From Sporomusa malonica (lineage in GTDB: Bacteria; Bacillota; Negativicutes; Sporomusales; Sporomusaceae): a DNA stretch of 64,000 bases. The DNA is taken from assembly GCF_900176355.1 (NCBI RefSeq), contig NZ_FWXI01000008.1:62001-126000 (forward strand), read 5' to 3'. The notes under the pieces were generated by a model that searched no databases, was not told the origin of the DNA, and was given only the letters and a program-made list of their open reading frames with translations. Made by a program: the position numbers and the translations under genes. Every line of letters begins with the position of its first letter. Positions within the stretch are counted from its first letter, which is position 1. Below are positions 2,064-4,231 of the stretch, piece by piece.

Positions 2064-2327
2064 ATGTATTTTGACGGACCCGAATTAGTTACCCATTACC
2101 AACGTTGGCTTACCACTTATCGTGAGCCTATTGAAGCTAAACTAACCACTGCCCTGAGCCACAGGGACCAGAAGCAAGCCATGCATAACGCCATGGAAGT
2201 TCTCTTAACAGAAGTTTTGCCTATGGCCTTGGCTGAAATGATTTTGTACAACAATGGTCGACTGGAAGAAAAAATTCAAGAAATGGACCTCGGCGGCTGT
2301 TCAAGCTGCGCAACTAATTTAAAGTAA
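2064..2327 (+). CDS. Small unknown protein ending in a CSSC motif
   Basis: An 87-residue, mostly helical soluble protein 29 bases downstream of the VWA gene, preceded by an AAGGATGTG-type ribosome binding site. The final residues contain GGCSSCATN, a CxxC pair that could bind a metal or form a redox disulfide. No family recognised. Its place as the last gene before a strong terminator suggests that it belongs to the MoxR-VWA operon and may be the small client or adaptor of that pair; this is inference from position only. Confidence 0.7.
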   Translation: MYFDGPELVTHYQRWLTTYREPIEAKLTTALSHRDQKQAMHNAMEVLLTEVLPMALAEMILYNNGRLEEKIQEMDLGGCSSCATNLK

Positions 2328-2423: not shown

Positions 2424-2462
2424 AAAAAACTGCTGGAGGCTTTAGGCCTCCAGCAGTTTTTT
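2424..2462. terminator. Bidirectional intrinsic terminator
   Basis: An 11-base-pair perfect stem (CTGCTGGAGGC with GCCTCCAGCAG) with a five-base loop. It is flanked by six A on the left and six T on the right, so it can stop transcripts from both the plus-strand operon and the converging minus-strand selenoprotein gene. The stop codon of the latter overlaps its edge. Confidence 0.9.
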
Positions 2463-2799
2463 AGCATGATGTACAATTGCCACAATTTTGGGTTGGAACC
2501 GGCAGACCATACAGGGCTAACCTCTTTCCAAAAAGCGTTGTTTCTGTATCAATTCTGAGTAAAATTTGGTCATTGTAATTTACCACCGAACTATGGGCGT
2601 ATATGCGGGCTCCATCTATGGTAAATTCTTGATAATCGTTTTCCTCATGTTGACCCGGCTTTCCCAGTCGCACGGACGGGACGGCAGCTGCCTGGGGAGC
2701 ACCTCAGCCAGGTATCAAGCGCTGCTCAATCCTTACAGTAATAATACCGCCTTCTTGAGCTATAAACTCCTGAGCCCGATCAGAAACTGTCATATTCAT
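2461..2799 (-). CDS. HesB/IscA-like selenoprotein (CC/Se-motif family), in-frame UGA = Sec32
   Basis: The true gene is 112 codons, from the ATG at 2799 (ribosome binding site AAAGGCGG) to 2461, and contains an in-frame TGA at 2706-2704 (codon 32). A conventional reading yields only the last 70 residues from a GTG. Translation through UGA gives an N terminus resembling HesB/IscA (MTVSDRAQEFIAQEGG), then LIPG-U-GAP where IscA has its first cluster-binding Cys, and a C-terminal NCGNCTSC. A possible bSECIS hairpin follows (CCCAG at 2696-2692 pairing with CTGGG at 2667-2663, with an inner GCA/TGC). Known families with this arrangement are the HesB-like and CC/Se-motif selenoproteins; their function is not established. 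It lies 20 bases behind the D-amino-acid transaminase gene and is probably cotranscribed. The alternative is a pseudogene, but frame, codons and both ends are intact. Confidence 0.82.
2663..2696 (-). promoter_or_regulatory. Candidate bSECIS element of the HesB-like selenoprotein
   Basis: Downstream of the in-frame UGA, CCCAG and CTGGG can close an irregular hairpin with an inner GCA/TGC stem. Bacterial SECIS hairpins sit directly after the UGA and place a G-containing loop roughly 16-37 bases away, which fits here. The hairpin is weaker than the one in the peroxiredoxin gene. Confidence 0.45.
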
Positions 2800-2819: not shown

Positions 2820-3680
2820 TTATTTACGGCCACACTCTTCGTCAATCATGCCCCAGTACGCTTCTTGAATTTTGCGGGTGATGGGGCCTACGCTGCCATT
2901 ACCGACAGGCTTTCCGTTTATAGTAATAATTGGCGTAATTTCGCTATTGGTGCCTGATACAAAAGCCTCTTCTGCTGTTTTGAGAAATGCCTCGTCAAAC
3001 TTCTTCTCGACAACTAAAACACCAAGTTCTGGCGCAATTTTTTCCATAATCAGCGTTCTGGTTACACCTGTCAAGATAAGATTGCACCTGGGATATGTCC
3101 AAGCAACGCCATCTTTAATTACGAAGAAGTTGCTGCTAGTTCCTTCGGTGACAAATCCATCCCGGACCTGAATAGCCTCGAAACAACCAGCTTCGTTAGC
3201 TTTTTGCTTGCCCATAACATTACCTAAGAGATTAAGAGACTTAATATCACATCTCAGCCATCTTTCGTCAGGAATGAGTAGACCTTTAGCACCTTCTAAT
3301 TTATTTTTATCAGGTGCTGCTGCTGCAGGACGAATAGACATAGTCAGACATGGCACAACGTTCTCAGGAAAACCATGTGCCCGTGGCGATACGCCGCGAG
3401 TAATCTGAAGGTAAATTGCTCCTTCCATAATACCACTCTCTTTAATAAGCAGCTCATGAAATTCGGCAAGTTCTTCATACGTATATACTGCCGGAATTGT
3501 CAGCTCGCGCAGCGAACGATATAGTCTGTCCACATGCATTTTCAGAGCAAAGCAGCGGCCATTATACACCCTAGTTACTTCATATACGCCGTCGCCGAAC
3601 TGATGGCCTCTATCTTCCATTGGCACAATGTTGTCATTTAAATCTATTAGTCTCCCATTTAGTAAACCAATTGGCTTCAT
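2820..3680 (-). CDS. dat: D-amino-acid transaminase (class IV aminotransferase)
   Basis: A 286-residue fold-type IV PLP aminotransferase, the usual length for D-alanine aminotransferase. The catalytic lysine is in the motif CDIKSLN (Lys147). The phosphate-binding region EGTSSNFF and the N-terminal GDGVYEVTR are typical. It interconverts D-alanine and D-glutamate with their 2-oxo acids, feeding peptidoglycan precursors. Branched-chain aminotransferase is the main alternative, but the length and the LNGRLIDLNDN start favour Dat. The ribosome binding site AAGGAGG lies upstream of ATG 3680. The gene is followed 20 bases later by the selenoprotein gene. Confidence 0.88.
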   Translation of the reverse strand: MKPIGLLNGRLIDLNDNIVPMEDRGHQFGDGVYEVTRVYNGRCFALKMHVDRLYRSLRELTIPAVYTYEELAEFHELLIKESGIMEGAIYLQITRGVSPRAHGFPENVVPCLTMSIRPAAAAPDKNKLEGAKGLLIPDERWLRCDIKSLNLLGNVMGKQKANEAGCFEAIQVRDGFVTEGTSSNFFVIKDGVAWTYPRCNLILTGVTRTLIMEKIAPELGVLVVEKKFDEAFLKTAEEAFVSGTNSEITPIITINGKPVGNGSVGPITRKIQEAYWGMIDEECGRK

Positions 3681-3766: not shown

Positions 3767-4231
3767 CTATTTTAGTGCATCCAGCACGCTTTGGGCATGT
3801 CCAGCTACTTTGACCTTCCGAAAAACATGAGTGATCTTTCCCTGTTCATTGATAATAAAAGTTGACCGTTCAATGCCTATGACTTTTTTGCCATACATAT
3901 TTTTCTCTTTGAGCACGCCATACAACTGGCAAACAGCACTGTCAGCATCGCTTAACAGCAGAAAAGGCAGCTCATGCTTGGCACTAAACTTTTCATGTGA
4001 TGACAGACTATCCCGGCTTACTCCTAGGAGGACAGCCCCAGCGGCAGTAATATCGCCATACACCTCGCGAAACTCGCGAGCCTCGTCTGTTCAAGCTGGG
4101 GTATTATCTTTCGGATAGAAATACAACACTACCTTCTTGCCTTGAAATTGACCTAAGGTTACTGGATTCCCGCCAGTCGCTGGCAGTGTAAAATCCGGAG
4201 CTATCTGCCCTTCTCTTATTTCTTCCATCAT
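3767..4231 (-). CDS. Selenocysteine-containing peroxiredoxin (BCP/PrxQ type), in-frame UGA = Sec47
   Basis: Read from the ATG at 4231 (GGGAG site upstream) to the TAG at 3767 this is 154 residues, the normal length for bacterioferritin-comigratory-protein peroxiredoxins. An in-frame TGA at 4093-4091 falls exactly at the peroxidatic cysteine: the PxxxTxxC active-site motif reads YPKDNTPA-U-T. The conserved Arg (IERSTF) is present. There is no Cys at the +5 resolving position; Cys101 is the only cysteine. A conventional reading would start at an internal GTG (4063) and lose the active site. A perfect hairpin right after the UGA provides a bSECIS. The enzyme should reduce peroxides with thioredoxin or another thiol donor. 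Sec peroxiredoxins such as PrxU are known in anaerobic Firmicutes. Confidence 0.92.
4064..4080 (-). promoter_or_regulatory. bSECIS hairpin of the Sec-peroxiredoxin
   Basis: CTCGCGA-GTT-TCGCGAG on the minus strand is a perfect 7-base-pair stem with a three-base loop containing G and U. It starts 10 bases after the in-frame TGA (4093-4091), placing the loop about 18-20 bases from the UGA. This is the position and form expected for SelB recognition, while the same bases still encode the normal peroxiredoxin helix. Confidence 0.8.

Follow-up and report, generated by a model that had tools for sequence, protein, structure and literature searches.

Comparison with its relatives shows the gene on the minus strand at 2461..2799 of the window (64,000 nt of the Sporomusa malonica genome, the whole stretch of DNA that was analysed) to encode a predicted selenoprotein of 112 aa, in which UGA codon 32 (TGA at 2704..2706, minus strand) would be decoded through a bacterial SECIS hairpin lying just downstream. 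The protein belongs to the CC/Se motif family, NF041239, and it is strongly supported that this family branches distantly within the HesB/IscA (A-type) superfamily, with Sec32 occupying the first A-type ligand position. The best explanation of these features as a whole, to which we assign a probability of roughly 0.5, is that of a CC/Se selenoprotein from an A-type branch in which Sec32 and the thiols of the C-terminal tail would make up a single redox site.

Gene structure and conservation across the UGA codon

The coordinates given in the initial annotation were correct, and the strand, which it left out, is the minus strand. The gene has an ATG start, a single in-frame TGA and a TAA stop after C106-G-N-C109-T-S-C112; with U at position 32, the 112-residue product runs from MNMTVSDRAQ through IPGUGAPQ to PTQNCGNCTSC. 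The source genome comprises 5.19 Mb in 66 contigs, and its nearest named relatives in the comparison are Sporomusa species. An extension as long as this on read-through is available to seven of the 828 TGA-ended open reading frames in the window, with similar results for TAA and TAG. The length of the read-through is by itself unremarkable, hence the weight of the selenoprotein case falls on homology and on the SECIS element.

Scanning the genome contigs with the single protein returned no match, and the rows of a 24-sequence alignment proved too diverse for it to serve as a query; a search with a nine-row alignment found five loci, of which four belong to named Sporomusa. Among the Sporomusa relatives, S. 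acidovorans (L097) has the Sec form and S. ovata (L093) a Cys orthologue. Ten other genomes from the taxonomic family of the window also contain an orthologue, nine of these being 61-71% identical to the window protein and that of G439 39%. The alignments at 61-71% identity span all 112 residues, with either Cys or Sec at column 32 (for G523 the match starts only at residue 15, its Cys being read off the alignment). This residue is U for the window protein and for G447 and G499, whereas the remaining orthologues have C. The Cys homologues at position 32 that the initial annotation had proposed to look for therefore exist, same-genus orthologues having Cys or Sec there, and the combination of an in-frame UGA with Cys homologues at the same column, by which selenoproteins are recognised, is found. 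On the poorly resolved tree of the orthologue group, at least two changes between Sec and Cys are needed. Within this group, no residue other than Cys or Sec occurs at position 32, and C106, C109 and C112 are invariant in nine orthologues; across 31 diverse family members, the only invariant columns are 32 (Cys/Sec) and P41.

A loss of reading frame conservation upstream of the TGA had been named as a finding that would count against read-through. However, on either side of the TGA it is the third codon positions that vary most: relative to L067, 19 of 31 are changed before the TGA and 38 of 80 after it, compared with six and 12 second positions respectively, a pattern that indicates coding constraint running across the TGA in both directions.

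A SECIS hairpin shared by Sec-containing members

When around 50 family members were lined up downstream of the TGA, a nucleotide motif, CCGTCCGTGCG, was found 15 to 36 nt after this codon in Sec members from several subfamilies; in most Cys members it was broken. It corresponds to the hairpin core CCC-GUC-[CGUGC]-GAC-U-GGG, which in the window takes the form UCCC-GUC-[CGUGC]-GAC-U-GGGA (2662..2681, minus strand), the loop beginning 29 nt after the UGA. More distant members have a second register, CCUAC-[CGUGxxx]-GUAGG. All six core pairs are formed in 48 of the 56 distinct Sec sequences and in two of the 39 Cys sequences, where synonymous recoding predicts 6.7 complete hairpins in the Sec set (with a maximum of 16 in 1000 runs) and 1.9 in the Cys set; as the hairpin was discovered in the same sequences in which it was then counted, this is not a blind test, and control is provided by the recoding and by the Cys members. 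GTG is the codon used for the loop valine in 47/53 Sec sequences, against 7/33 Cys sequences. Over 16 aligned members, 100% of cells are paired, with two-sided changes in two pairs; compensatory pairs in the stem include GUC/GAC, GGC/GCC and AUC/GAU, and sliding the partner strand along destroys the pairing.

Bacterial SECIS elements are described as having a loop of 3-9 nt with a G in its first two positions, a stem of 4-16 bp, a distance of 16-37 nt from the UGA and a minimum free energy of -7.5 kcal/mol or lower (PMC13188914). The window hairpin agrees with this description, having a 5-nt loop (CGUGC) with G second, 7 bp interrupted by one bulge and a spacing of 29 nt. Its minimum free energy varies with the fragment folded, being -7.1 kcal/mol for the bare 20 nt, -7.9 kcal/mol for 25 nt and -9.6 kcal/mol for 28 nt, and the hairpin dominates the ensemble of the 28-nt stretch. 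It is not chosen when the 41 nt that immediately follow the UGA are folded alone, and no convincing hairpin emerged for three sequences in which the first 41-42 nt beyond the UGA were folded; the element becomes visible only through the comparison of many family members.

The machinery required to read such an element is complete in the window's genome. The selA and selB genes lie side by side, and tRNA-Sec (selC) is detected with 71.4 bits and a TCA anticodon; the lack of a tRNA-Sec at the selAB locus, as judged by Rfam at its gathering threshold, arises because selC is located elsewhere. SelD is also present (L188, G000:C20:65952-66869) and, as selD contains an in-frame TGA, is itself probably a selenoprotein. 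Hence the Sec/Cys orthologues, the coding signal across the TGA, the SECIS element and the set of selA, selB, selC and selD together point to a selenoprotein gene, bearing out the original proposal that reading through codon 32 yields a 112-residue selenoprotein. It is scarcely credible that the TGA is instead a true stop, followed by a decaying remnant or by a re-start at a downstream GTG: although a 70-aa open reading frame with such a GTG start does exist, the TGA is kept at the same column in two close orthologues (G447 and G499) and in many relatives, the coding signal lies on both sides of it, and the SECIS is conserved alongside TGA and mostly lost alongside Cys.

Membership of the CC/Se motif family

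The window protein matches NF041239 (Moor_selen_rel, 'CC/Se motif family (seleno)protein') with 44.8 bits, the curated cut-off being 40, residues 1-96 aligning with positions 1-88 of the 91-position model. NF041239 is also matched by all 31 of the diverse relatives scanned, and in this NCBIfam scan the SufA, IscA, ErpA and IscA_HesB_Se models rank after it. Members are found in 56 of 300 genomes of the class, often several per genome and in Sec or Cys form; the window's genome has three, all with a TGA, whilst several organisms have between 3 and 10 paralogues. NF041239 appears as a hypothetical family in a 2026 selenoproteome review (PMC13188914). It is thus already catalogued, without a function, and the window protein is a further member; the initial annotation's statement that the function of the family is not established still holds.

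The likeness to NF041239 consists of a near full-length match, Cys or Sec at the same column and a P-x-V-x-x-G motif following it. Unlike the CC, CU or UC pair suggested by the family name, which lies outside the curated cut-off, the orthologue group of the window protein carries just one U or C at this point (U-G-x-P). In the window protein, G comes after U32, and the partner Cys is absent throughout this group except in L071, as it is from several other members matching NF041239. Because membership at NCBI is decided by the profile and not by the pair, the protein is kept in NF041239 as a variant without the pair. A second difference lies at the C terminus, where the CxxCxxC end reported earlier is indeed present and is a trait of the orthologue group, but is missing from most of the family.

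Relationship to the HesB/IscA superfamily

The CC/Se profile was aligned using hhalign with a profile of HesB-like selenoproteins (alignment A5), built from relatives found with TIGR01911 that themselves score below the TIGR01911 cut-off. This gave a match with a probability of 97.8% (E 9.9e-13) and a score of 69.4 across 94 columns, in which the Sec positions of the two profiles coincide; the reversed profile scored 19.6, and the maximum from 100 column shuffles was 20.2. Sec32 also aligns, weakly, with C35 of E. coli IscA. Both alignments are in keeping with the earlier suggestion that Sec replaces the first cluster-binding Cys of IscA. The window protein has no match to TIGR01911 up to an E value of 10 and none to PF01521; sub-threshold PF01521 matches were found in four distinct family members (2.6e-5 to 0.03), the best member reaching 24.8 bits where the cut-off is 26.3. 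Hence the description 'HesB-like' stands as a statement of kinship, but not as a family label: the formal family is NF041239 rather than TIGR01911 or PF01521, and the protein does not qualify as a canonical IscA or as a HesB-like selenoprotein of TIGR01911.

Structural comparison was made with an AlphaFold model based on a nine-sequence alignment (A2, with rows including L064, L065 and L071). Searches of the PDB with phmmer and with a profile found no relative by sequence. The model is poor, with a pLDDT of 48.8; its first six PDB matches are to IscA, SufA and AQ_1857, and in the VIA structure comparison the first nine rows all belong to the HesB/IscA superfamily, with a best Z of 5.6, which is in the range that a common fold could give, and around 10% identity to the A-type matches. 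Predicting the structure of the 112-residue chain, as the initial annotation advised, therefore ranks IscA and SufA first, but at these low values of pLDDT and Z. The kinship has good support from sequence, whereas structure provides no more than a hint of it.

The resemblance to the TIGR01911 HesB-like proteins extends, according to the profiles, over nearly the whole length, with Sec lying in U-G-G-P in these proteins and in U-G-A-P in the window protein, and with a Cys-rich tail in many HesB-like members; TIGR01911 itself has no match in 28 genomes of the order. IscA, SufA and ErpA (PF01521) resemble the window protein in the predicted order of secondary-structure elements and in the first ligand position, and proteins of this type head the structure matches of the poor model, whereas the identity is around 10% and PF01521 does not match. 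In T. elongatus IscA, the ligands are C37, C101 and C103, a first-loop Cys and a CxC tail (PMC8593673). Instead of these three Cys, the window protein has Sec32 together with C106, C109 and C112, forming CxxCxxC rather than CxC, in a similar layout. A PF01521 search of the 28 genomes of the order revealed no canonical A-type protein, the sole match being the CC/Se member L123, whilst nine of 14 control genomes were positive.

With the link to HesB/IscA, NF041239 acquires a probable fold, a column for its active site and ligands that can be tested. Neither this link nor the common SECIS is described in the open-access PMC papers searched, although, as the search covered open-access PMC papers only, absence from them is weak evidence.

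Genomic neighbourhood

A D-amino-acid transaminase gene (2820..3680, minus strand; TIGR01121, 319.6 bits, above cut-off) lies 20 bp upstream of the selenoprotein gene. This adjacency is kept in eight loci, including the window, and the two genes probably form one operon. At the other end, a long inverted repeat with A/T flanks (2424..2463) overlaps the stop codon; it was read directly from the sequence, is absent from the output of the pattern scan, and is probably a bidirectional terminator common to the selenoprotein gene and its convergent neighbour. The latter (2064..2327, plus strand) encodes a conserved 87-aa protein with no Pfam or NCBIfam match, which marks the orthologous locus. It ends in the Cys-containing sequence GGCSSC and sits behind MoxR- and VWA-type genes, the convergent arrangement being found in Sporomusa-type loci.

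Upstream of the transaminase, also on the minus strand, at 3767..4231, is a gene for a PrxQ/BCP-type peroxiredoxin with its own TGA at 4093..4091, presumably the one that the initial annotation counted as the first selenoprotein. PrxQ is encoded beside or near the CC/Se gene in nine loci from two taxonomic families, being directly adjacent in one (G439), and is absent from the fetched region in 8 of 17 loci. A Sec-form gene has a Sec PrxQ and the transaminase nearby in G447 and in five genomes from the other taxonomic family; in G467 and G439, both PrxQ and the CC/Se gene have Cys. In 9/9 loci the two genes match in being of Sec or of Cys form; these loci amount to one phylogenetically independent contrast, and for this reason co-switching was dropped as evidence. 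As the transaminase and an acyltransferase travel along with PrxQ, the link may reflect a slow decay of gene order. Across the wider CC/Se family, the neighbouring genes have no common theme and no constant neighbour. PrxQ itself occurs in Sec and Cys forms in related genomes, and the window gene has a 7-bp hairpin just 3' of its TGA in the predicted fold, which is no stronger than those of shuffled sequences.

Possible functions

Extrapolating from A-type structures, the loop bearing Sec32 would face the C-terminal tail; as the tail would return to the first-ligand loop, Sec32 and C106, C109 and C112 would form one chemical site. Most likely this would be a redox site, with a selenol or selenenylsulfide resolved by the tail thiols, which could reduce or regenerate a partner, possibly the neighbouring PrxQ peroxiredoxin. 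Redox functions are thought to be the role of most selenoproteins (PMC13188914). Two considerations favour a redox role over the carriage of clusters or metals: Sec occurs mainly at redox sites, and PrxQ recurs in the neighbourhood of the gene. The protein is probably not a classical cluster carrier.

Carriage of an Fe-S cluster or metal, with Sec32 and the tail Cys residues acting as ligands in the manner of the three Cys of IscA and the protein filling in for the A-type carriers that the order appears to lack, is nevertheless the main alternative, though a tentative one, because of the superfamily to which the protein is related and the lack of canonical A-type matches in the 28 genomes. It would accord with the ligand alignment that accompanies the homology, the invariant CxxCxxC tail of the orthologue group, the interchange of Cys and Sec at column 32, and the contrast between 0/28 genomes of the order with canonical A-type proteins and the 9/14 controls with PF01521 matches. 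However, the tail Cys residues are missing from most family members, hence three ligands are not a family trait, and the 3 to 10 paralogues of several organisms also argue against carriage. To our knowledge, natural ligation by Sec has not been established for any Fe-S carrier. A further argument against carriage comes from M. maripaludis, in which disruption of a HesB-like selenoprotein did not impair nitrogen fixation (an unpublished observation quoted in PMC11097638). The wider proposition, that radiated A-type relatives took over cluster or metal handling in an order apparently lacking canonical A-type carriers, with Sec as a natural ligand replacing the first Cys of IscA, seems rather doubtful. 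Were Sec to bind a cluster or metal, this would bear on how clusters are delivered in organisms without canonical A-type carriers.

An improbable alternative to the redox site is a regulatory or structural protein with the IscA fold, in which Sec32 would sense oxidants, selenium or metals with neither catalysis nor cluster carriage; the protein is without a DNA-binding part and the wider family without a constant neighbour, set against which are the presence of DsrR, an A-type relative, among the fold matches and the switching between Sec and Cys in close orthologues.

Atypical family members

A near-invariant SECIS that divergent paralogues have in common, and that most Cys forms have lost, allows Sec forms to be told from Cys forms, and is also a clean means of finding fossils of Sec-to-Cys conversion. 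One Cys member of the family, L152 (G495:C6, 101-391), retains a complete SECIS hairpin and is likely to be a fossil of a recent conversion of this kind. Another member, L134 (G491:C128, 101-391), has two in-frame TGAs, the second of which falls inside the SECIS hairpin; either this encodes a second Sec, or L134 is a decaying copy. The paralogues L086 and L053/L054/L056/L059 adjoin, by eye, genes for a putative metal P-type ATPase and RND efflux, and tandem copies of CC/Se genes are found at L023/L033 (G038:C21) and at G447:C1:2420790-2421340.
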